Assembly: GCF_000619905.2 (NCBI RefSeq)
Contig: NZ_CP012371.1
Location: forward strand, 2,666,001 to 2,730,000
DNA: 64,000 nt
From: Nitrosospira briensis C-128
Lineage (GTDB): Bacteria; Pseudomonadota; Gammaproteobacteria; Burkholderiales; Nitrosomonadaceae
Direction of reading: 5' to 3'
Shown: positions 31,064 to 44,956 of the stretch, in pieces
Layout: the number at the start of each line of letters is the position of its first letter
How positions within the stretch are numbered: the stretch's first letter is position 1
Position numbers and translations under genes: made by a program
Notes under the pieces: generated by a model
The model's input: the letters and a program-made list of their open reading frames with translations, nothing else
Databases searched by the model: none
Told to the model about the DNA's origin: nothing

Positions 31064-32266
31064 ATGATGGGCATATTGTCACCAACCACGGCAAGGCATT
31101 TCCTTTGGATCATGCTGATAACTATAGCTTCAGCGTCCAATGCGAATGAAGAGGCTTTACTAGAGCTGCTCATGCGCCATCAAATGAAACAGCAAGAAAA
31201 TCTAGACGAGGAGGATGAAGATACAAGAGACGAAGATAATGCAGTTAATTTCAAAATAAAAGATATTGCTTCACATGCCTTAGTAGTTTTCGATAGGAAT
31301 TGCACACAAGTTGTGCAGCCGTTTAAGCTCACCGATAATTTTGATGTTCTCCACGGTTATGTGATGAACCAAACTATTGGAGAGGTTAAAGATATAGGAG
31401 TCAATGTGCTTACCGGATTGTTGGGAGGGCAACGGCCCAAAATGGATGTTCTTAAACCAATCAAGAAAAATATTCCTAAATCGCTCCAGCGTGCAGCGCA
31501 ACAGTTAAATTGGTTACCCATGACAGTTGAGATAATGTACGGAGAACGTTTACATAAGCAGGAAGACAATATACTGGCAAGAGAACATAAGCTCGGCCAG
31601 AAATATTATCCCATCGCGGATAAGATGCTGGAGGAAATTCTTTCCACAGTAAATCAAAAGCACGATTACGAATTCAAATTGTTCATTCTAAAAAATAGTG
31701 GAGGAAATGCAATTGCCCGGCCTGGTGGTTTTCTATACATCGATCAAGGCCTGATCGATGACCCAAATCGTCATCCAAAGGCATATTTCGCACTCGCGCA
31801 CGAATTGGCTCACGTATTACAGCGTCATGAAACAAAAGAGCTGCAGAGCATGATAATTGACTCGATTCCGGATAAGGAGCTGTGGAAAGTAGTATCCAGA
31901 GTGAAATATAATCCTGAAATTATATTTGATTACCTTAAGGTAAGGAAAGATCGGTTTACCGCTCATCACGTGGATCAGGAATTGCAATCCGACTCTTGCG
32001 CAGTAAAACTGCTTGATCGTGTGTTTGTGGACGATAATAAGCTGACTAATTCAATTCAGGTATTTCTGAAAGATTTGGAAGACTTACCCGTCGCAAACTT
32101 AAAAAAGGTTGCCTCAGTAGATACCACACCTTCCTGGGGGAAAACAGCAAATGTTCTCGTTGAGCTTGTTGACATGCCTCTTATGCGCCATCCCACTACC
32201 ATGCAACGCACAGATAATCTGAAAGCTATGTATGGCGAGGTTAAAAAAAGATTAGCACGCGAATAA
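31064..32266 (+). CDS. exported M48-family metallopeptidase
   Basis: A 400-residue protein with signal peptide (MMGILSPTTARHFLWIMLITIASASNA) and an acidic linker (~50-60). The peptidase core is 'AIARPGGFLYIDQGLI...HPKAYFALAHELAHVLQRHE' with HELAH (His ~246 and ~250) as zinc ligands and catalytic Glu; the third ligand Glu lies in 'DQELQSDSCAVKLL' (~306). This is the BepA/Oma1-like periplasmic type that clips misassembled outer-membrane proteins. The N-terminal ~200 residues are not typical and may bind its partner. RBS GAGGAAATG. Confidence 0.82.
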   Translation: MMGILSPTTARHFLWIMLITIASASNANEEALLELLMRHQMKQQENLDEEDEDTRDEDNAVNFKIKDIASHALVVFDRNCTQVVQPFKLTDNFDVLHGYVMNQTIGEVKDIGVNVLTGLLGGQRPKMDVLKPIKKNIPKSLQRAAQQLNWLPMTVEIMYGERLHKQEDNILAREHKLGQKYYPIADKMLEEILSTVNQKHDYEFKLFILKNSGGNAIARPGGFLYIDQGLIDDPNRHPKAYFALAHELAHVLQRHETKELQSMIIDSIPDKELWKVVSRVKYNPEIIFDYLKVRKDRFTAHHVDQELQSDSCAVKLLDRVFVDDNKLTNSIQVFLKDLEDLPVANLKKVASVDTTPSWGKTANVLVELVDMPLMRHPTTMQRTDNLKAMYGEVKKRLARE

Positions 32267-32343
32267 TAGATGGGGTATAGGTGTATTGCGTTGGTACTTT
32301 GCAGGATTTCACAGTTGATAGTCAGAGGGTGACTTCATAGCAA

Positions 32344-32378
32344 AATCCCGCAAGAAGATTTCTATTTCTTACGGGATT
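32344..32378. terminator. bidirectional terminator between M48 and membrane-protein genes
   Basis: AATCCCG-c-AAGAA ... TTCTT-a-CGGGATT forms a long stem between the convergent genes ending at 32266 and 32404. It has short T/A runs on both sides. Confidence 0.6.
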
Positions 32379-32403
32379 CTCAGTTGAGAAAGCTTGCAAT
32401 TAT

Positions 32404-33192
32404 TTACCTCTGGTTAGTGATTTTACCATCGACAATGAGGGGATTCATGATGTTTGGAAATAATCGTGTTTCCAGAAGCGAGCCAGGGGCAACCAAAACT
32501 AATGTTTTTCCATCCTTCAGCTCGATATCGACATTATTAGTGAAGGTAAAAATCCAGAAAAAATCTCTTTTTATCTGAGCAGCCAAAATATGCTGGGGCA
32601 AATAGGTCTGAATGGATGGAAATATAACGCCATTAAAAATGACGATTCGATTTCCTTTGTTGCCCACCGTCCTAATTAGCTGGATTCGAGTGCGAGCCCC
32701 TGGAATAAGCAAGTATAAGCAGTTACCCGCTGCTGCAAATGCGATGATGCCCAATATGGCAGATATGGTACTTAGATTTTCTTTTTGGATATAGTCAAAA
32801 CTCGTAGTGTTTGTAAATAGACTTGCGGAGAACGTCAACAGAAATAGAAACCAAGAACGACTGTACGAATAAAAGGGACGTGTACTGACAAATTCGATAG
32901 TCTCTGTCTTCTGTGGCCGAAGAAGATGTGATTGTATCGATACCCCTGCAATAATCGCGAGAACCACTAGAGCTATTATCCAGCCGATATGAATTGATAA
33001 TTGCAGAGAATATATCGTGTTGACGATAAGTTCCAGCGCTTGAAAAGCGGGATGTCCATGGATTCCTGCCCAATAAGGTTTTATCAAAATAATGATGATT
33101 AATCCCGTCTGAATAAACCAAAGCATAAAAGCCAGCGTATCGGTCCAGTCCTTAAAAATTTGTATTCTTTTCATTGTTTTTTGATCCGTCAT
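32404..33192 (-). CDS. membrane protein, unknown function
   Basis: A 262-residue protein with four predicted transmembrane helices: ~18-38 (TLAFMLWFIQTGLIIIILI), ~65-85 (GWIIALVVLAIIAGVSI), ~110-130 (SRSWFLFLLTFSASLF) and ~143-160 (TISAILGIIAFAAAGNCLYLL). The C-terminal ~95 residues are soluble and beta-rich ('GNRIVIFNGVIFPSIQTYLPQHILAAQIKRDFFWIFTFTNNVDIELKDGKTLVLVAPGSLLE'). AT-rich codon use differs from the core genes. No family recognised. Confidence 0.6.
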   Translation of the reverse strand: MTDQKTMKRIQIFKDWTDTLAFMLWFIQTGLIIIILIKPYWAGIHGHPAFQALELIVNTIYSLQLSIHIGWIIALVVLAIIAGVSIQSHLLRPQKTETIEFVSTRPFYSYSRSWFLFLLTFSASLFTNTTSFDYIQKENLSTISAILGIIAFAAAGNCLYLLIPGARTRIQLIRTVGNKGNRIVIFNGVIFPSIQTYLPQHILAAQIKRDFFWIFTFTNNVDIELKDGKTLVLVAPGSLLETRLFPNIMNPLIVDGKITNQR

Positions 33193-34642: not shown

Positions 34643-34789
34643 CGCCGTCCGAGCGCCGGGATATGGTTTCACGTTTGGCGCAGGATCAGAGGCTGTCCAT
34701 CAGACGATCCTGCCAGTTGGTGAACCTAGAAGTGGTTCCGTTTGTTTGAACAACACCTTGAATATTTTAAGTGGAATCTCTGCTGATTC

Positions 34790-35625
34790 TCACGCTGCCA
34801 GTTCGACCGTCGGCAGCATCACGGCATAAGCCTCATCAGGCGTTTTCTTGCCCAGGCTCGCATGTGGCCTGGATCGGTTGTACCAATCCATGTATTGCAT
34901 AATTGATGCTCTGGCTTCTGCGATCGAGTCATAGGCATGTAAATACACCCGCTCGTATTTCACCGATTTCCACAGGCGCTCGACGAACACATTGTCCCTC
35001 CAGGCTCCGCGCCCGTCCATGCTGAGGTTACAGCCCTGTTCCCTGACGGCCTGCACGAACTCATGCGCGGTGAATTGGCTGCCTTGATCGGTATTCACGA
35101 TCTCCGGCTTGCCATGGCGATGGAACGCCTCTTGCAGCACATCGACGGCATGGCAGGCTTCCAGCGTGATCGCTACCTTTGCGGCTAATACCCGGCGCGA
35201 GGCCCAATCCACGACGGCGGTAAGGTAGATAATTCTTTGGCCATTGGAATATAGGTCGAATCGAGCGCCCAGACCTGGTTGGCCCGGTTGATGGCGAGGC
35301 TGCGCAACAGGTAAGGATAAATTTCATGGCCGGGGTGCCTCTTGCTGGTTCCAGGCTTTCTCTTTCTATATAGCGCCTCAATGCCCATACGCTTCATCAA
35401 CGTGCCAACATGCTTGCGTCCAACATCGAGCCCTTCCCGATTGAGTTGGTCGCGCAGCATGCGCGCGCCCATGAACGGATGTTCCAGGTGCAATTCGTCA
35501 ATGCGGCGCATGAGCGCCAGATCCACGGCGCTGACTGGTTTGGGCAGATAATACACGCTGCCCCGGCTGTTGCCGGCCAACCGGGCCCGACGGCTGATCG
35601 GAAGTGCGTGGTGGACGTCTATCAT
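34790..35625 (-). pseudogene. IS3-family OrfB of copy A, frameshifted
   Basis: The N-terminal part (35185-35625: MIDVHHALPISRRARLAGNSRGSVYYLPKP...) and the C-terminal part (34790-35212: 'VDWASRRVLAAKVAITLEACHAVD', 'VNTDQGSQFTAHEF', 'WRDNVFVERLWKSVKYERVYLHAYDS') lie in different frames. Compared with copy B, one base is missing around 35232 within the 'MAKGFVYL' codons. The DDE residues are otherwise present (D in NTDQGSQF, E in VFVERLW). Confidence 0.85.
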
Positions 35626-35927
35626 CGCTTTGCGCTCAGCAATCCCACCGAGGTTCGCGCACCTTCTAAAAAATCATTCTCCAGCGTCAGTTGCCCAATC
35701 TTGGCGTGCAACACCTTCAAATCAACCGGTGGCTCCGCCGCAGTGCCGCCTCCGCCAAACACGTCGACCGCCCGTTCGTTCAGTTGCCGTTTCCACTCGG
35801 TAATCTGGTTGGGATGAACTTCAAACCGCTGTGCCAGTTCGGCCAGCGTCTTGTCACCAGCCAGCGCTGCCAGTGCCACTTTGGCTTTGAACGCCGCTGA
35901 GTGCGTCCGTCTTGCTCTTTTTGCCAT
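35622..35927 (-). CDS. IS3-family OrfA of copy A
   Basis: From ATG at 35927 the 101-residue product is [49 protein letters not shown]..., an intact IS3-type helix-turn-helix OrfA with the '[16 protein letters not shown]' coiled coil. It overlaps the OrfB start by 4 bases, as needed for the usual -1 frameshift fusion. Confidence 0.88.
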   Translation of the reverse strand: MAKRARRTHSAAFKAKVALAALAGDKTLAELAQRFEVHPNQITEWKRQLNERAVDVFGGGGTAAEPPVDLKVLHAKIGQLTLENDFLEGARTSVGLLSAKR

Positions 35928-36276
35928 TTCTCTGCTCCATATCAAAGCCCCGCAGGGACCATCAAAAGGTAGCAGATTTTCCACTTATAGACTTGTTCAG
36001 ATTCTTGGGGCCACTTCTACCTGCGCAAGATCCTGCGCCGCTTGGCGCTTTTGTGTGCCAGTTTTCGGGTCAGTCTCAATCAACTGCTGGCAAGCAAAAT
36101 ACCAAACTTACAATTGACTGGCTGAAAAAGGAGTTTTTCAGGGACGACTACAAAGCTATAACGAAGAACGCCCCCATGACGCGCTGGGAAGCCTGCCCCC
36201 GGCACTGTTCCGCGAGCGATTGCTCTCAGGGATGAATTCTACTTCTGAACTGTCTACTTGACGGGGAAGCTTACGA

Positions 36277-36497: not shown

Positions 36498-39400
36498 TCA
36501 CAACCAATTACCCATTAAGATAAAAGGTGCCCAAAAGAAAGGGTGGGCATAGGGTTTTGCAGGATCTGGCACATATATAGGTGCGCTTGTAATATTGACT
36601 CTAGTCTCTGCTTTTCGGGGTATGTGTGAAAAAGTTGGAAGCGGGTGCTTGCCATATATCAGTGTCAATTGTGCTTCACGTAGCGCATTGGCCTTATTGA
36701 ATCCTTTTTCCTGCCGCAAATGATAAAGTGCTTGCATAAAAATCGCTGTGCTTCGATCAGCCACTTTCCAAAGTGTGGCCAGTACACTTTTGGCACCCTG
36801 CCGTTGCGCTAAAGCGCCAAAACCTTCTATTTCATCCCCACTTCCGTCCTGAGCACCACCAAGCCCAGTCTCACAAGCCGAAAGCGTCATCATATCTATC
36901 GAATCAAATTTCCATCCGCCAGATCGTAGTTCATCCAATGAGAGTTGTTTTCCGTCACCGAGTAATAAGAAGGACTTTGATACCGTTCCTGGAATAAAAA
37001 CGAAGTGGCTGGCAATATGTAATATAGGATAATCCTGCTCTAGCACATTTCGTAGGCGTGCTTCGGTAAATTCTTTATCCAAATATATTTTACCCGGCAA
37101 TACACCATCTATGGTTTTCCTAACACCGACATAGATTATGCCATCCAACTCCTGCCTAACTGCCGGCAATATTTTAAATAAGCCAGTGGCTTGCGTGATG
37201 CCGAATCCAGCTGCTCTCCATCGAGTCGAAGGCTTATCACGTAGTTTCGCCTTCGCAAGCTCACTATACATTACCACCGGATAACGCTCGGTAAGATAAG
37301 CCTTGCCATCATGCAAGGCACTTATAGGCAGATAACGCAAGCTATCGTCTAGCGATAGCATGAGCATCTGGGCATTGGCTCGCTCCAAATCCTGCGCTAT
37401 CGGGGCAATCAATAATTGATACAATGCTTGTGCCAGCGGACGCGGATCGAGAGCAGGATTTTCTATTATTCGCCCGAACTCTGCTATTTTTCGATTGAGT
37501 TCTTTTTCTTGAATTTTTGTGTTTCTTGCAAATTGCATCTGAGGTGTAGTCAGAATTATACGGATATGTGTATCAGTAACCAGATACTGAAGCAACACAA
37601 CACCATTTCCCAGCGATGTCAGCAACTCGCGAAGCTGACTAGGAATTTGTTTGTCTATCGCCATCCGCACCTGTTTTTTTGCTGTTTCCAATTGTTTTGG
37701 GACAGCATTATGTAAGGACACCATGTTCTTTGCTTGTGCGGCCAGCTGTTGCTTGATTCGTTTGCGTTGTTGCTCTATTTGGGATGTAAGTCCAGGCTCA
37801 ATTTTTTTATTCAATGTATTAAGTTGGTCAACCAATATAGCGCTCTCATTTCCAAGTTTTTCGATGTGTTCCGCGATTAACTTCTCGGTCTGATTGTAAC
37901 TAATGCGCGTACTGCGAGGATCTGCTTTGATATCACGCTGAATGAAGTCAAAATACTCATCTTCCTTAAGTATAGACAGTACTTCCTGGGCTTCAGTTAA
38001 TCTTCCTGCTACGATCAACAGATCGGCCAGTTGTTTATATACTTCCTTGTTCTTGCTCAATAGAGATTTCTGAAGAACCATGTCTAACCCTAGGGACTGG
38101 CCTCGTATGGTTTGCATGGTATTAACCGCTGCTTTTAGATAGAAAATCGCCGCAGCAGAATCGCCATGTTTAGCATAAAAGTATCCAATATCTCTTTGTA
38201 CTAACTTTAACGTTTCAGGTACGCGCGCGGACTGGGCGGAATAATAAGCACGGCGATATAACGGCATAGCTTTATCATATTCGCCAAGGCTATCGTACAG
38301 TGCCGCCAGATTGTTTAAACTGGCAGCGGTCTCGGGGTGCTCTGGGCCAAGCACCTTTTCCCGGATAGCAAGGGCGTGCTGAAGTAGTGGCAATGCCCTA
38401 TCGTATTCATCAAGAGTGTTGTATAAGACCGCCAGATTATTGAGACTGCTAGCCGTATCAGTGTGCTCTGGGCCAAGCACCTTTTCCCGAATAGCAAGGG
38501 CGCGTTGCAGTAGTGGCAATGCCCTGTCGTATTCATCAAGAGTGTTGTATAAGACTGCCAAGTTATTGAGACTGCTAGCGGTGTCGGTGTGTTCTGGGCC
38601 GAGAGCCTTTTCTCGAATGACTAATGCGCGCTGATATAACGGCATCGCCTTATGATATTCGCCAAGTATTCTGTAAAGCGCAGCCAAATTATTAAGGCTG
38701 CCCGCCGTATCAACATGATTTAATCCAAGAAATTTTTCCCGGATTGCAAGAGCGCGCTCATATAAAGGTAGCGCTTTATCGTATGCACTCAGCTTTTGAT
38801 TCAATACTGCCAAAATATCCATGCTGTTGGCTGTATCAATATGTTCTGAGCCAAGAATTTCTTCCCGGATTTTCAATGCTCGCTGATATAGCGGCATGGC
38901 TTTATCATATTCGCCAAGGGTGTCATACAGTGCCGCCAGATTATTCAAGCTAGTAGCGGTCTCGATGTGCTTCGGGCCGAGGGCTTTTTCTCGGACCTCC
39001 AATGCTCGCTGATATAGCGGCATTGCTTTATCATATTCGCCAAGGGTGTCATACAGTGCCGCCAGATTATTCAAGCTAGTAGCGGTCTCGGTGTGCTCCG
39101 GGCCGAGGGCTTTTTCTCGGACCTCCAAGGCCCGTTGATATAACGGCATGGCCTTATCATATTCGCCAAGGGTGCCGTATAGTGCCGCTAAGCTATTCAA
39201 GCTAGTGGCTGTCGCAGTGTGCCCTGAGCCTAGCACCTTTTCCCGGATCGCTAGGGCGCGCTGGTACAATGGCAACGCTTTATCGTATTGATCGATCGAT
39301 CGATATAACACAGCCAAGTTGTTGAGGCTGCTAGCGGTTTCAATATGTTCTGGTCCGAGAGCCTTTTCTCGTATCTCTAGAGCGCGCTGGTACAATGGCA

Positions 39401-40055
39401 ACGCTTTATCGTTTTCTCCCAAGGTTTGATATAACACCGCGAGGTTATTTAGGCTCTGGGCAGTATCAGAATGCTCTGGCCCCAAGACCTTTTCCCGAAT
39501 TGCTAGAGCTCGTTGATACAACGGCAACGCTTTATCGTATTGATCGATCGTTCGGAATAACACCCCTAGGTTATTTAGGCTCTGGGCAGTATCAGAATGC
39601 TCTGGCCCCAAGACCTTTTCCCGAATCGCTAGAGCTCGTTGATACAACGGCAACGCTTTATCGTATTGATCAATCGTTGCATACAAGCTTGCTAGGCCAT
39701 TTAGACTAGTCGCCGTGTCGGGATGTTCTGAGCCAAGTATTTTTTCTCGAATTGTAAGAGAACGCTGATATAGTGGCAGCGCCCTATCGTATTGATCGAT
39801 GGCTTGATACAACTTGGCTAGGCTATTCAGAGTTCGCGCGGTCTCTGCGTGCTCCAGACCGATAGTCTCTTCCTGAAGTGCAAGAATGCGCTGATACAGA
39901 GGTAGCGCCTCTTCATACTTACTTTGCTGGTATAACGCCAAAGCCTGTTGGTTTAATTGGGTAGCGTCGTCTTTTGCGCCAGAATATGCGCTGGCAGGAG
40001 AAAGGCTCATCATTAGAAGTAATGTGATGATGGGACCACGCACTATATGTTTCAT
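36498..40055 (-). CDS. exported TPR-CHAT caspase-like protease, 1185 aa
   Basis: A signal peptide (MKHIVRGPIITLLLMMSLSPASA) is followed by about fourteen 42-residue kinesin-light-chain-type TPR repeats (~30-620; core 'YDKALPLYQRALAIREKVLG', 'SLNNLAVLY'), then a helical segment (~640-860) and a CHAT domain (~890-1170). The caspase-like dyad is intact: His in 'LHIASHFVF' (~1013) and Cys in 'TLSACETGLGG' (~1058). CHAT proteases cut partner proteins when the TPR sensor is triggered. Export to the periplasm or cell surface is implied. It is the last gene of a leftward cluster with a sigma factor and membrane proteins. The target is unknown. Confidence 0.9.
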   Translation of the reverse strand: MKHIVRGPIITLLLMMSLSPASAYSGAKDDATQLNQQALALYQQSKYEEALPLYQRILALQEETIGLEHAETARTLNSLAKLYQAIDQYDRALPLYQRSLTIREKILGSEHPDTATSLNGLASLYATIDQYDKALPLYQRALAIREKVLGPEHSDTAQSLNNLGVLFRTIDQYDKALPLYQRALAIREKVLGPEHSDTAQSLNNLAVLYQTLGENDKALPLYQRALEIREKALGPEHIETASSLNNLAVLYRSIDQYDKALPLYQRALAIREKVLGSGHTATATSLNSLAALYGTLGEYDKAMPLYQRALEVREKALGPEHTETATSLNNLAALYDTLGEYDKAMPLYQRALEVREKALGPKHIETATSLNNLAALYDTLGEYDKAMPLYQRALKIREEILGSEHIDTANSMDILAVLNQKLSAYDKALPLYERALAIREKFLGLNHVDTAGSLNNLAALYRILGEYHKAMPLYQRALVIREKALGPEHTDTASSLNNLAVLYNTLDEYDRALPLLQRALAIREKVLGPEHTDTASSLNNLAVLYNTLDEYDRALPLLQHALAIREKVLGPEHPETAASLNNLAALYDSLGEYDKAMPLYRRAYYSAQSARVPETLKLVQRDIGYFYAKHGDSAAAIFYLKAAVNTMQTIRGQSLGLDMVLQKSLLSKNKEVYKQLADLLIVAGRLTEAQEVLSILKEDEYFDFIQRDIKADPRSTRISYNQTEKLIAEHIEKLGNESAILVDQLNTLNKKIEPGLTSQIEQQRKRIKQQLAAQAKNMVSLHNAVPKQLETAKKQVRMAIDKQIPSQLRELLTSLGNGVVLLQYLVTDTHIRIILTTPQMQFARNTKIQEKELNRKIAEFGRIIENPALDPRPLAQALYQLLIAPIAQDLERANAQMLMLSLDDSLRYLPISALHDGKAYLTERYPVVMYSELAKAKLRDKPSTRWRAAGFGITQATGLFKILPAVRQELDGIIYVGVRKTIDGVLPGKIYLDKEFTEARLRNVLEQDYPILHIASHFVFIPGTVSKSFLLLGDGKQLSLDELRSGGWKFDSIDMMTLSACETGLGGAQDGSGDEIEGFGALAQRQGAKSVLATLWKVADRSTAIFMQALYHLRQEKGFNKANALREAQLTLIYGKHPLPTFSHIPRKAETRVNITSAPIYVPDPAKPYAHPFFWAPFILMGNWL

Positions 40056-40318
40056 TTCTTATTATCAATTAGACACAATCATAGATAAAATCTCTTTCGC
40101 CGGATAAAGTGAAAAAGACAATGTGGTGAAGATTCTTCCAGCAGACGTCCCGACATGGTGATTGGATGAAGAGTTTGCTAATCTAAAATGATAGTCTTAA
40201 GACAAGGCCGAATATCGCAATATCTTCGGATGGTTGTAATACAAAATATCTCGAAGATCCGTTTAAGCGGAGCTTCTCGACTTCATGTTGCAATCCATGT
40301 TTGGATATCGTTATTTCG

Positions 40319-40915
40319 TTACGGTTTGGTCATTGGCCGAATATTCAGATTCAAGCTCATTTCTATCGGTGGCTTAATGTGATTGTTCTTCAGAAAGGTT
40401 TCCACCTCTTCTTTCCTTGGGTCTATGCCTTCAATCTTGAGTGAAATTTCATCCCCTATGCGCTCGACTTGATAGTTGATGCGGAGCCGATCTAATTCGG
40501 AAGTAAGATGTGTCAAATGTTTTTCCGGATCCACCGCCAACACAATTTGCATATCACCCAAACCACGTATGGCTTCTGCCTCATTTTGCAGTGGATCTTG
40601 ATGTAGATGAGTAAGATATACCAAGCCTACGCTCAGCATCACGGATGCAGCTACAGCAAACCGAACAAAACGCTTGTTGAGATTTGAGTATCGACCTGTT
40701 TCAATTAAGCCTTCACGGCGCAAACGAAACATGAGTTGTTCGTAATGTGCCGCGTCAGCTTTGGGAATTTCCGCTGCTATTTGCTCGTTACGTGCTTTCA
40801 AAGCTTTGCGCAACGCCAAAGCTTCACGATTGATCTCTGGATCTGCAGCGGGATCAGGGTTGCCTGCTAACGCAGCAAACCACTGTTCATCTTGTATGTT
40901 AGGAGGTTGTGTCAT
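40319..40915 (-). CDS. single-span membrane protein, anti-sigma-like
   Basis: I chose ATG at 40915 (MTQPPNIQDEQWFAALAGNPDPAADPEINREALALRKALKARNEQ), which overlaps the sigma-factor stop. The first ~100 residues are cytoplasmic and charged, one helix lies at ~107-123 ('FVRFAVAASVMLSVGLVYL'), and the rest is a small alpha/beta domain ('GDMQIVLAVDPEKHLTHLTSELDRLRINYQVERIGDEISLKIEGI'). Adjacent sigma gene and topology suggest an anti-sigma or signal partner, but no zinc-finger anti-sigma motif is seen. A 263-base gap separates it from the TPR-CHAT gene. Confidence 0.6.
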   Translation of the reverse strand: MTQPPNIQDEQWFAALAGNPDPAADPEINREALALRKALKARNEQIAAEIPKADAAHYEQLMFRLRREGLIETGRYSNLNKRFVRFAVAASVMLSVGLVYLTHLHQDPLQNEAEAIRGLGDMQIVLAVDPEKHLTHLTSELDRLRINYQVERIGDEISLKIEGIDPRKEEVETFLKNNHIKPPIEMSLNLNIRPMTKP

Positions 40916-41706
40916 GAGGATAATAATCCCTTGCAATGAATTATAAATGGTTCGAATTTTTTTCTGCACTGGCTCAGATATTCCCGGGTAGCCGAAAGGG
41001 TTCGACCAATTTTGATGCTAATTTCTTTGTCACTCACCCCATCCATCTTCATTTCGAGAACATGGACGCGTAGAGGATGCTCCCTGCTAAACGCCTCAAG
41101 TCCCGCGCAGACGCAATCAGCAACGGCTCTGGGGTTGTTGGATATCACGAATGCTCCTTTCTCAACTTCATGGTCATCGTTTTCGTTATCTCTCACATTC
41201 TCTATATCCCGTTCATACATTGTTTTTTGCGAAGGATCTTTTTCATTGCGGCAATGCGGCTCGATCTCACAGTCAAGATTCTTTGTTACTTCGTCGAGTT
41301 TCTCCGCATCGGAAGGCAGATCTGCAGCATCGTTTTCGGTGGATTCCCTACCGCGGGACTCATCCTTCGATTGATAACCGGAAAAAAAATTCTCCTGTTC
41401 TTCATGTTCACGCAACGCGTCTTTATAACGAGAATGTTTACGAAAATGATCAATTAGACAATTCCGGGCTATCCGCCAAATCCAGGCTTTAGCTTTTTCC
41501 TCCCCTGAAAAATTTGTTGCGCCTCTAACAATATTCACAACTGTCTCTTGAAGCACGTCCCATGCTTCCTCTATAGAAACGCGTCCGCGTTTAATAAAAA
41601 AAGAAAGCATGTGTTGTGCATGGTTGTCGTAAAGGGCCTTGCATCCTGCTTGTGTTTCTTTGCCGCCGCTACGAATTAATCTTATTATTTCTTCTTCAGT
41701 TATCAT
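40912..41706 (-). CDS. ECF-type sigma factor with long linker
   Basis: A 264-residue protein: region 2 at ~20-95 ('KALYDNHAQHMLSFFIKRGRVSIEEAWDVLQETVVNIVRGA', 'KAWIWRIARNCLIDHFRKH') and region 4 at ~205-255 ('REHPLRVHVLEMKMDGVSDKEISIKIGRTLSATREYLSQCRKKFEPF'). The ~100 residues between are acidic and Asn-rich, much longer than in ordinary ECF factors. It overlaps the downstream membrane-protein gene by 4 bases and follows the DUF4407 gene by 42 bases. It is probably the transcriptional switch of the cluster. Confidence 0.85.
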   Translation of the reverse strand: MITEEEIIRLIRSGGKETQAGCKALYDNHAQHMLSFFIKRGRVSIEEAWDVLQETVVNIVRGATNFSGEEKAKAWIWRIARNCLIDHFRKHSRYKDALREHEEQENFFSGYQSKDESRGRESTENDAADLPSDAEKLDEVTKNLDCEIEPHCRNEKDPSQKTMYERDIENVRDNENDDHEVEKGAFVISNNPRAVADCVCAGLEAFSREHPLRVHVLEMKMDGVSDKEISIKIGRTLSATREYLSQCRKKFEPFIIHCKGLLSS

Positions 41707-41748
41707 TCCCAGGTCCGCTCCTTTCTTGCCCAGATTGCATATTCCTTC

Positions 41749-42696
41749 CTAAACCGTAGAGCTTACACTATTTGAGTAAATGTTTTTAAGGAGCTTTCTG
41801 GCATTGGCAGTTGGAGATGTTTCTGCATCCTTGAGGCGCTCGGCATTATGCCGGATTACATCCTCACGAAGTTTTTCGATCTGATCATCAACGGTTTCCC
41901 CGAAAAACAATTTGGTCAACACAACCATAAGCTCAAAAAATAAGATTAGCGCAAAGCATAGTAACCATACAATCAGAGCAGCGTTATTGTTCGATACGTA
42001 GCTATGCAAGGCTTTTAAACGCGTAAGCAATCCTTCTTCTTCAAAAGTAGAAGTTAAAGAATTTGCCAATTCCTGAGTCTTATCTTTATAAATTTCTTCG
42101 AGCTTATGCTGCGCATCAATATAGTCTTGGCGGAAGACTTCGGCTTGCCGAGACAGTTCACGGGATCTTGGTCCAAGGATGGGGATTCCACTACCACACT
42201 TGCCATTAGCTTCACAATTGGCTTCTTCTTGCTTGTCTAACCAGCCAATTCTCGCCTTATCCAAAATTTCCTTCTGAGAAGAAGCTAACCTTTCATATTT
42301 AGCACTTATATCGATTCTTTTATCTCTAAGCAGTTGCTGCGTTATATCTTTGTTGAATATAACCAAGTCAACCATGCCAGAACCTAAAGTAGCAATTATT
42401 ACACCGATCAATATGCGGCTAAAATTCACATACCAGACCTTAGGTGCGACCAGAATTAGCCGCTCAACCAGGTAAATCAATCCTGCCCAAAAAAGTGTAA
42501 TCAATGCAGAGGTCACCATTCCCAACTCGAATATCATGGAGGCTATTGCGTAGCTGGATACCGCCCAGATTGTTACGGGGATATGGAGGGCAATGGCAAA
42601 TGCTTTCATGCGCCTAACGGTGGCAGGTTGCCACAACTTTACTATTGCCGGTTCTTCACCGACGACATAACACATATACCTTGTAGCAAAATTCAT
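41749..42696 (-). CDS. DUF4407 membrane protein
   Basis: I chose ATG at 42696 because AAGGAGCC precedes it; the in-frame upstream codons are not needed. The 315-residue product has transmembrane helices at ~30-52, ~57-80, ~88-110 and ~250-275, with a long coiled-coil segment between (~120-245: 'KDITQQLLRDKRIDISAKYERLASSQKEILDKAR', 'EVFRQDYIDAQHKLEEIYKDKTQEL'). This is the DUF4407 layout, of unknown function, perhaps a mechanosensor or signalling protein. It lies in the cluster just before the sigma factor gene. Confidence 0.78.
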   Translation of the reverse strand: MNFATRYMCYVVGEEPAIVKLWQPATVRRMKAFAIALHIPVTIWAVSSYAIASMIFELGMVTSALITLFWAGLIYLVERLILVAPKVWYVNFSRILIGVIIATLGSGMVDLVIFNKDITQQLLRDKRIDISAKYERLASSQKEILDKARIGWLDKQEEANCEANGKCGSGIPILGPRSRELSRQAEVFRQDYIDAQHKLEEIYKDKTQELANSLTSTFEEEGLLTRLKALHSYVSNNNAALIVWLLCFALILFFELMVVLTKLFFGETVDDQIEKLREDVIRHNAERLKDAETSPTANARKLLKNIYSNSVSSTV

Positions 42697-42715
42697 GATT
42701 TGGCTCCTTCTTAAG

Positions 42716-43327
42716 CTAATATTTTGGAAGAGTGGTTGCGCGTAACCCATCGTGAAAGCCCATTTGATACCGATTTAGGGATCCCAGTACCCAGCCGGTG
42801 CCCTTTGCAGCTTTTTCGGATTGCTCCCTCAAGTCTATTATGTCCTTCCCCATACGCTCTTGGGCTAACCTCAGTCGATTGCTCAGACGAGGATCGACTC
42901 CTTCAATTTCTATGAGTTGATCTTGTAACTTATATATATTTGCGTCTTTTTGTTCCATAAGTGCCATGAGAGTAATCTCAAATTTTGCGATGATTAAAGT
43001 TCTCCCAAGCTCCAATGCTGCATGCGACTTAAGCGTCGCGCCATCGTGACGGCCGACGGCGTGGTAGTCCACGTTAAAGAAAGCAACTAACTCGGGCGCA
43101 TTTATTAATCCATCGCTTCTTTCATAATTTGCTTCTGTATTTAAAATCTGCGCGGTGTTATAGTCACCTATGACAGATGCAGGTAAGTGAGCCACCTCCC
43201 CTACGGATGGGCTGTTTAGCTCTACTCTGCTGGTCTGCCCTTGTGGGGATGTAGGGGAATTCTCACTGGGGGGAGTACTAAATATCGAATGAAGCGACTT
43301 CCATGAAAATAATTGGTGCAATTTCAT
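42716..43327 (-). CDS. unknown protein, first gene of the CHAT cluster
   Basis: A 203-residue protein (MKLHQLFSWKSLHSIFSTPPSENSPTSPQG...) with GGAGGGAATT upstream of its ATG. The first ~50 residues are Ser/Pro-rich and disordered. The rest is helical ('KSHAALELGRTLIIAKFEITLMALMEQKDANIYKLQDQLIEIEGV', 'LSNRLRLAQERMGKDIIDLREQSEKAAKGTGWVLGS'), with no signal peptide. It ends 20 bases before the DUF4407 start. Probably a cytoplasmic partner of that membrane protein. Confidence 0.55.
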   Translation of the reverse strand: MKLHQLFSWKSLHSIFSTPPSENSPTSPQGQTSRVELNSPSVGEVAHLPASVIGDYNTAQILNTEANYERSDGLINAPELVAFFNVDYHAVGRHDGATLKSHAALELGRTLIIAKFEITLMALMEQKDANIYKLQDQLIEIEGVDPRLSNRLRLAQERMGKDIIDLREQSEKAAKGTGWVLGSLNRYQMGFHDGLRATTLPKY

Positions 43328-43688: not shown

Positions 43689-43750
43689 AGAAGTGGTCCC
43701 GATTGTTTGAACAACGACCGGAGTATTTTAAGTGGAATCTCTGCTGATTT

Positions 43751-44565
43751 TCACGCTGCCAGTTCGACCGTCGGCAGCATCACGGCATAAGCTTCATCAG
43801 GTGTTTTCTTGCCCAGACTCGAATGTGGTCTGGATCGGTTGTACCAATCCATGTATTGCATAATTGATGATCTGGCTTCGGTGACCGAGTCATAGGCATG
43901 TAAATACACCCGCTCGTATTTCACCGATTTCCACAGGCGCTCGACGAACACTTTATCTCTCCAGGCCCCGCGCCCATCCATGCTGGGTTTGCACCCCTGT
44001 TCCTTGACCGCCTGCAAGAATTCATGGGTGGTGAACTGCCTGCCTTGGTCGGTGTTCACAATTTCCGGCCTACCGTGGCGGCTGAATGCTTCTTGCAACA
44101 CATCGACTGCATGGCAGGCCTCCAGCGTGATCGCTACCTTTGCTGCCAATACACGCCGTGAGGCCCAATCCACGACGGCGGTAAGGTAGACGAAGCCTTT
44201 GGCCATCGGAATGTAGGTCGTGTCCAGTGCCCAAACCTGGTTGGCCCGATTGATGGCAAGGCCCCGCAGCAGGATAAAGGGTGCTTCTTGCTGGTGCCCG
44301 GCTTTCTGTATAGCGCCTCTATGCCCATGCGTTTCATCAACGTGCCGACGTGCTTGCGTCCAACATCGTACTCCGCCCGATTAAGCTGGTCACGCAGCAT
44401 CCGTGCACTCATGAAGGGATTCTCCAGGTGCAATTCGTCAATGCGGCACATGAGCGCCAGATCGGCAGGGCTGACAGGTCTGGGTAGATAGTACACGCTG
44501 CCCCGGCTGATGCCGGTCAGTTGGGCCTGACGACTGATTGAAAGTGCGTGGTTGCCGTCTATCAT
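43751..44565 (-). pseudogene. IS3-family OrfB of copy B, frameshifted
   Basis: The N-terminal part (44134-44565) loses frame near 'EALYRKPGTSKKHPLSCC', where about 20 bases present in copy A are missing (around 44265-44315). The remainder (43751-44206: MAKGFVYLTAVVDWASRRV...) is intact. So copies A and B carry different inactivating changes. Confidence 0.85.
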
Positions 44566-44864
44566 CGCTTTGCGCTCAGCAATCCCAGCTTGGTGAGCGC
44601 ACTTTCTAAAAAATCATTCTCCAGCGTCAGCTGCCCAATCTTGGCATGCAATACCTTCAGATCAACCGGCGGCTCAGCCACAGCGGTCCCACCAAATACG
44701 TCGGCCGCTCGCTCGCTGAGTTGCCGTTTCCACTCGGTAATCTGGTTGGGATGCACTTCAAACCGCTGTGCCAGTTCAGCCAGCGTCTTATCGCCAGCTA
44801 GCGCTGCCAGTGCCACTTTGGCTTTGAACACCGCTGAATGGGTTCGTCTCGATCTTTTTGCCAT
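44562..44864 (-). CDS. IS3-family OrfA of copy B
   Basis: ATG at 44864 gives a ~100-residue OrfA ([59 protein letters not shown]...), nearly identical to that of copy A, with an intact helix-turn-helix and coiled coil. An upstream in-frame start lies in the terminal repeat region and is not used. Confidence 0.85.
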
Positions 44865-44956
44865 TTTCTCTGCTCCATGTCGAAGCCCCGCAGGGACCAT
44901 CAAAAGGTAGCAGATTTTCCACTTATGGATTTGTTCAAACTCTTGGGGCCACTTCT

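Follow-up and report, generated by a model that had tools for sequence, protein, structure and literature searches.

Which genes belong together where an extracytoplasmic function (ECF) sigma factor stands beside an exported-looking TPR-CHAT protease, and what might the protease do there? The question is raised by a stretch of 64,000 nucleotides from Nitrosospira briensis C-128 (contig NZ_CP012371.1, positions 2,666,001 to 2,730,000; hereafter the window, to whose full length all window coordinates refer). An earlier note on this DNA had described five leftward genes as one candidate system, and all five are present as minus-strand open reading frames (ORFs) where it had placed them. We found that the unit recurring in other genomes comprises three of them, namely the genes of the ECF sigma factor, of a single-span anti-sigma-like protein (hereafter anti-sigma) and of the exported-looking TPR-CHAT protease. 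The candidate system is real and wider than proposed, as it forms a family with exchangeable caspase-fold proteases, but it has three genes, not five.

The recurring three-gene core

Sigma relatives matching in both halves of the protein were first seen in genomes G443 and G441, then in G225 and G285. An anti-sigma relative is encoded directly after the sigma factor in G443, G225 and G285 and one ORF further on in G441, where the order is sigma, a 150-aa ORF, anti-sigma, a 142-aa ORF and an exported-looking TPR-CHAT gene. G754 carries sigma, anti-sigma, a TPR ORF and a CHAT ORF; anti-sigma and TPR ORFs overlap by 4 bp, and the last two ORFs are apparently one frameshifted gene. That the three genes belong together, as the earlier note had it, is supported by the recurrence of their order in G441 and G754. 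The note had also asked whether neighbours vary while the unit is kept: the sigma/anti-sigma pair remains constant, while the protease type (CHAT or peptidase family C14) and the flanks change. The pair is followed in G225 by a C14 caspase and a TPR protein truncated at the contig end, G016 holds two copies of sigma, anti-sigma and C14 caspase, and G640 encodes TPR-CHAT, C14, sigma and anti-sigma on one strand. Next to this pair, CHAT and C14, both of the caspase fold, can stand in for each other.

A tree of 43 CHAT domains unites those of the window, G441 and G754 in a clade (support 100/99), joined with moderate support by G640 and G800 (85/91). The anti-sigma tree groups the same three (95/99), whereas the sigma tree does not. 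The anti-sigma family is rare, since its profiles matched only 7 of 369 genomes of the class and 9 of 389 of the order, own genome and false hits included.

Eighteen loci were collected with anti-sigma profiles or via the sigma factor. Two were dropped: L218 (G797), by eye a false hit with no sigma gene beside it, and L180 (G223), where an ECF sigma is encoded, neither CHAT nor a caspase was hit and the outer domain looks by eye like that of formylglycine-generating enzyme; L219, a decayed locus without sigma gene, was kept. In 13 of the resulting 16 loci the fetched stretch includes a gene for CHAT or C14, which is a same-strand neighbour of the pair in ten (the window, L072, L073, L178 and L211 to L216), as well as in the decayed L219. 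The three negatives (L071, L091 and L179) are whole contigs of 3.2-4.4 kb. By contrast, 20 generic ECF loci taken from the class as controls, hand-picked from the higher-scoring sigma matches and not a random sample, had no CHAT or C14 nearby (Fisher p ~2e-7, to be read as a guide since the case loci are related; 13/18 and p ~1.6e-6 with both dropped loci counted). Because the CHAT and caspase profiles had been built partly from case loci, the counts were cross-checked by a Pfam search of the same genomes, which agreed. CHAT or C14 is present elsewhere in seven of these 20 genomes; the copy closest to a control sigma gene is a CHAT gene some 22 kb away on its contig (G543), and in control genome G403 a CHAT gene adjoins a different ECF sigma. 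A second control set of 79 generic ECF loci from a scan of genome contigs (mean 17 kb) likewise contained none with CHAT or C14; the first such scan gave no matches, and the second mostly generic ECF loci among the matches listed.

Insertion sequence (IS) copies on both sides, a low GC content and the absence of the sigma factor from 22 other genomes of the genus might suggest chance neighbours collected between IS elements. The recurrence of the same core in G441 and G754 and the counts of 13/16 versus 0/20 contradict this explanation, which we consider scarcely credible.

Could the DUF4407 gene and the gene of the 203-aa protein nevertheless be part of one five-gene system? Both lie on the same strand and overlap each other by 35 bp, the DUF4407 gene ends 42 bp before the sigma gene, and the earlier note had proposed a cassette of five. 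Neither gene was found in any of the 15 other family loci (L072 and L216, cut by a contig end on the upstream side, are uninformative here), and the gene upstream of sigma in G754 is unrelated and on the other strand. We thus reject the five-gene cassette, and a single system of all five genes appears very improbable.

A candidate extracytoplasmic switch

Pfam was used with its family cut-offs. In the window sigma factor, Sigma70_r2 scored 39.6 bits (cut-off 24) and no sigma4 model was reached on the protein itself; TIGR02937 covers residues 22-250 at 41.9 bits, slightly under its cut-off of 42.9, and a profile of this protein and four relatives matched whole ECF sigma factors in the Protein Data Bank (PDB) across sigma2 and sigma4. 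Judged by its sequence, the protein has the sigma2 and sigma4 regions, and no sigma3, that define an ECF sigma factor, and it may belong to a published ECF group. It measures 264 aa versus 184-202 aa in four relatives, the excess sitting in the linker, whose length of about 100 residues the earlier note had rightly pointed out; among 13 sigma relatives, L217 also has a longish linker.

The anti-sigma has one predicted transmembrane segment and overlaps the sigma gene, as described before, but an overlap of 58 bp holds for the GTG start at 40969 alone, which the ORF tool had chosen (216 aa). From the ATG at 40915, most likely the start, the protein has 198 aa and its gene shares 4 bp (ATGA) with the sigma stop. 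No Pfam model exceeded its cut-off in this protein (best DUF3379, 16.2 bits versus 33.2) or in six further family members. The AlphaFold model (mean pLDDT 66.8) shows three helices and then the transmembrane segment; against the PDB, the outer domain gave no sequence match, no Foldseek match at E 0.001 and Z scores of at most 7.3. L180 (7078-8933) encodes an ECF sigma and then a protein with similar N-terminus, a transmembrane segment and the outer domain mentioned above; in anti-sigmas of this type, the outer part may be replaceable by another. In L091 (1-2212), a short contig, a Methylobacillus sigma/anti-sigma pair has a papain-like exported protein (by eye) just upstream and no CHAT or C14.

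Just outside the transmembrane segment, 11 of 15 anti-sigma proteins carry a hydrophobic-Arg-[GDSA] motif. A shuffling test without L219 and with L091 and L178 excluded for their long linkers (adding these two gives the 15) found it in 11 of 13 proteins versus a shuffled mean of 2.4, and none of 20,000 shuffles scored as high; a stricter Arg pattern, present in 8 of 13, was equalled by 21 of 20,000. This conserved juxtamembrane Arg is a candidate cleavage site.

The protease matches the CHAT family PF12770 at 199.8 bits (cut-off 24) along with many TPR models, and the His and Cys of its dyad (His1017/Cys1061) are kept in 43 of 43 aligned CHAT domains; by domain score and dyad it belongs to the CHAT peptidases, and proteolysis is predicted. 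The own genome contains one CHAT match and no C14 match. All of 11 aligned CHAT domains have an Asp at Cys+39; a similar Asp in separase shapes the Arg pocket. The linked C14 proteins keep His and Cys motifs and have an Asp two residues before the Cys (Asp-x-Cys) in 8 of 8 cases, a feature of metacaspases. Metacaspases cut after Arg or Lys, according to PMC13304501.

Size, domains and dyad of the exported 1185-residue TPR-CHAT protease claimed by the earlier note hold; its export is suggested by the N-terminus, which both visual inspection and a home-made rule class as signal-peptide-like. This rule is passed by 38 of 43 CHAT ORFs, but also by 31 of 91 control ORFs. Exported-looking TPR-CHAT proteins are therefore not unusual, and export as something special, another point of the note, is not supported. 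Linked CHAT and C14 proteins mostly have exported-looking N-termini by eye.

For an AlphaFold model of the CHAT domain of moderate quality (mean pLDDT 62), VIA-align ranked DdvA first (Z 17.3 and 16.9; the better match with a root-mean-square deviation of 4.6 over 232 residues), ahead of Csx29/TPR-CHAT (at most 15.5), a SAVED-CHAT protein (14.8) and separases (at most 12.7). In Foldseek the top places went to TPR-CHAT (E 2e-6) and Csx29, and DdvA came third (E 4e-5). A CHAT sequence profile found one TPR-CHAT chain (E 0.007) and one match judged spurious, so that the DdvA link is by fold alone.

Of 116 genomes from the class to which a Myxococcales record belongs, 61 contain CHAT. Among 20 CHAT stretches hand-picked from the matches listed, mainly by frame length, five had a sigma profile hit (L264, L265, L268, L280 and L281). 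In L281 (4421-7896), a single chain combines zf-HC2 (38.7 bits), a transmembrane segment at about residue 155 and CHAT (61 bits), and the ORF directly before it (sigma profile 35.5 bits) ends at approximately an in-frame Met of the fused chain. Such a natural fusion behind an ECF sigma is classical evidence for a shared pathway. The architecture of L281 is DdvA-like. In L265, the gene of a lipoprotein-like CHAT protein and that of an ECF sigma point away from each other, and the sigma gene is followed by one whose product has, by eye, a single hydrophobic span and Cys motifs.

How could the three proteins work together? Building on the observed gene content, the recurrence of the pair with CHAT or C14, the intact dyad, the one predicted transmembrane segment and the recurrent Arg motif, together with the modelled caspase fold, we propose a three-part extracytoplasmic switch in which a periplasmic caspase-fold protease controls the anti-sigma, probably by cutting it, a reading to which we assign a probability of roughly 45%. 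The ECF sigma would be held at the inner membrane by the single-span anti-sigma, with the helical N-terminus of the latter inside and its small alpha/beta domain outside, while the separately exported protease would sense something in the periplasm via its TPR repeats. Once triggered, the protease would cleave the anti-sigma in its outer juxtamembrane stretch, probably after the conserved Arg, and further proteolysis would then free the sigma factor, which would transcribe its own operon and perhaps others. Sigma binding, topology, signal direction, cleavage and its site, trigger and autoregulation are what we infer in this model. Envelope sensing, as the earlier note had suggested for the cluster, is plausible.

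Alternatively, the protease might be the output: the sigma factor would be freed by ordinary DegS/RseP-type proteolysis and transcribe a protease acting on envelope or foreign proteins. In several loci the protease gene is indeed found downstream with the same orientation, ECF sigmas frequently regulate the operon that encodes them (stated also in PMC10028731), and possible site-1 functions are encoded beside the pair, namely a trypsin-like protease in L212 (Pfam) and a PDZ-like lipoprotein in L071 (by eye). A role inside the switch is favoured, however, by the like-for-like interchange of CHAT and C14 next to one kind of pair, by the L281 fusion and by the DdvA match, and we regard the protease as pure output as less probable. 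Within the switch, TPR-CHAT could also act as a non-proteolytic periplasmic sensor binding the outer domain of the anti-sigma, a role that CHAT may have in DdvA, where it is fused to the anti-sigma. That DdvA, titled a transmembrane anti-sigma, carries the fold, and that L281 is a fusion, would fit such a sensor, but the His and Cys of all 43 aligned CHAT domains and the motifs kept in the eight linked C14 proteins make it improbable.

Several points weigh against the proteolytic switch. Identity of the window sigma to the sigmas of its two closest systems is 34-36%, against 52% between those two, while the anti-sigma reaches 48-56%; the sigma is an outlier, and the pairing in the window genome may be rewired or decaying. 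The binding of the sigma factor by an inhibitory single-span protein, and the topology of the latter, are presumed. The Arg motif was chosen after inspection, the shuffles ignore the relatedness of the sequences, AlphaFold places the motif in a strand with low confidence, and L091, L178, L179 and L217 do not show it within the first 25 residues. In L074 the peptidase closest to sigma is divergent from it, in L217 the closest one lies ~3 kb away on the opposite strand, and the window protease gene may have its own promoter, being 263 bp downstream of the anti-sigma gene. Besides L072, 5 of 34 other CHAT stretches from the first two fetches, which are not a random draw, had a sigma profile hit (L178, L194, L191, L089 and L075), so that exported CHAT proteins mostly act without a linked sigma; only L178 among the five has this anti-sigma family. 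Finally, a simple transfer of the Arg-site idea is opposed by the cut that Csx29 makes in Csx30, which lies in a loop (between residues 427 and 429), where the available part of PMC10028731 reports no Arg.

As a separate observation, the window sigma gene shows much greater divergence from its relatives than do the two adjoining core genes, a possible sign of replacement or rewiring; taken with the long linker insertion, this divergence points to a replaced or fast-changing sigma factor. In L194 (4633-9240), L191 (7927-12648) and L089 (3413-10361), exported-looking TPR-CHAT genes are found close to an ECF sigma and a single-hydrophobic-span protein that both differ from those of the core; these are separate sigma-CHAT associations.

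Setting of the core in the window

Table 1 Features of the cluster and its flanks (window coordinates).
Feature	Position	Strand	Basis
IS3-like copy, left flank	34728..36018	-	ORFs and pairwise comparison
Exported-looking TPR-CHAT protease, 1185 aa; core	36498..40055	-	ORF, Pfam
CHAT (caspase-fold) domain, residues 873-1183	36507..37439	-	Pfam, AlphaFold, structure search
Catalytic-type Cys1061 codon	36873..36875	-	CHAT alignment
Catalytic-type His1017 codon	37005..37007	-	CHAT alignment
Signal-peptide-like N-terminus, ~residues 1-23	39987..40055	-	Heuristic
Single-span anti-sigma-like protein, 198 aa from ATG at 40915; core	40319..40915	-	ORF, relatives, model
Arg117 codon (AIR-G motif), juxtamembrane stretch; putative cleavage site	40565..40567	-	Motif comparison
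Transmembrane segment of anti-sigma protein, residues 83-101 of 198	40613..40669	-	Transmembrane prediction
ECF sigma factor, 264 aa, sigma2 and sigma4, unusually long linker; core	40912..41706	-	ORF, Pfam, family profile
DUF4407 membrane protein, 333 aa; neighbour outside conserved core	41749..42750	-	Pfam, locus comparison
203-aa protein, no known family; neighbour outside conserved core	42716..43327	-	Pfam, locus comparison
IS3-like copy, right flank, 86% identical to left one	43689..44956	-	ORFs and pairwise comparison

The 'short gaps' of the earlier note apply to the upstream genes, with their overlap and 42-bp gap, and least to the position directly before the protease. Its DUF4407 assignment was correct (102.6 bits, cut-off 31.3), and the 203-aa protein reached no Pfam cut-off. 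Among 150 genomes of the order, the DUF4407 protein matched its own genome alone; likewise, the Pfam model exceeded its cut-off in this genome alone among 185 of the class, 18 others staying below it.

GC content is 0.42-0.46 in the five genes versus ~0.50-0.60 in 1-30 kb and 44-64 kb. The sigma factor found no match in 22 other genomes of the genus, which supports an accessory status of the cluster. The IS3-like copies have the same orientation, and since they are 86% identical, a recent composite transposon is rejected; the IS elements that the earlier note had linked with horizontal spread do flank the cluster, but differ too much to form a single recent transposon. Prophage-like genes for capsid, terminase large subunit and VapE-like primase, then ParB and integrase (2790-27537), adjoin the low-GC island with the cluster, and 31064-33192 holds an M48 metallopeptidase gene followed by a convergent one for a multi-span membrane protein without Pfam family.

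No Rfam family was found at 28-50 kb, and no promoter motif is claimed from the upstream stretches inspected by eye; sigma70-like sites occur at chance level and terminator-like sites below it. For the CHAT protein PADLOC gave TPR models and otherwise weak matches, and for the six other proteins nothing; PHROGs gave a sigma match and, apart from it, weak ones. In plasmid records, the anti-sigma, the DUF4407 protein, the 203-aa protein and the cluster DNA had no match. The sigma factor matched three records (one inspected, with no CHAT in its annotation) and CHAT 141 (three contexts inspected, none with an annotated sigma gene, though the annotation is known to have gaps).

Relation to known systems

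ECF-CHAT links as such are already known from ECF54 and CASP-sigma. A published description of the split sigma/anti-sigma/CHAT module was not found in the literature on CHAT, caspase or metacaspase with sigma or anti-sigma as far as it was available, key ECF classification papers lying outside its coverage. For ECF54, PMC8999054 describes CHAT, subtilase or carboxypeptidase proteins in the genetic context and proposes control by proteolysis; ECF54 thus shares with our core an ECF sigma with CHAT in its context, but is described there without an anti-sigma factor. EACC2-caspase neighbourhoods likewise unite caspase, TPR protein and ECF sigma, but comprise a caspase with both EACC2 and variable domains and a DUF1822 TPR protein, with no mention of an anti-sigma in the part of PMC8195603 available.

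Site-1 enzymes of the RseA-DegS-RseP and RsiW pathways are not known to be of the caspase fold, and Csx29 of type III-E CRISPR systems is not known to be exported. With the former pathways, the proposed switch would share a membrane anti-sigma first cut on its outer side (described in part in PMC10028731). According to the same paper, type III-E loci combine a TPR-CHAT protease, a sigma inhibitor and the ECF-like CASP-sigma, and Csx29 cuts the inhibitor Csx30 in a loop between residues 427 and 429, which relieves inhibition; these systems are RNA-guided. Membership of the window locus in type III-E was rejected (NCBIfam Csx29 14.8 bits, cut-off 300; III-E sigma 39.6, cut-off 100), and no array-like CRISPR repeats were found in 28-50 kb, Cas7-11 being outside this search.

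DdvS and DdvA are the ECF sigma and transmembrane anti-sigma of Myxococcus xanthus, and the titles of PDB 8rot and 8rw5 name DdvA a transmembrane anti-sigma. DdvA carries the fold best matching the window CHAT domain in VIA-align. In the window, an ECF sigma adjoins a single-span protein that may inhibit it. In DdvA, however, the CHAT fold lies inside the anti-sigma chain, whereas the window encodes anti-sigma and TPR-CHAT as separate genes and its anti-sigma has a small outer domain of its own.

For most exported-looking TPR-CHAT proteins no substrate is known. They recur in the sampled genomes, and their recurrent pairing with one anti-sigma family offers a candidate substrate, a candidate site and a readout in the form of a sigma-dependent reporter. 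Tentatively, exported and interchangeable caspase-fold proteases, TPR-CHAT or metacaspase-like C14, might serve as dedicated site-1 enzymes whose substrates are a new family of membrane anti-sigmas, cut after a conserved juxtamembrane Arg, and thus the periplasmic, split counterpart of DdvA and Csx29-Csx30. Some bacteria may then switch genes on via a caspase-like enzyme outside the cytoplasm, and Csx29-Csx30 and DdvA would join a wider class in which caspase-fold proteins control sigma factors.

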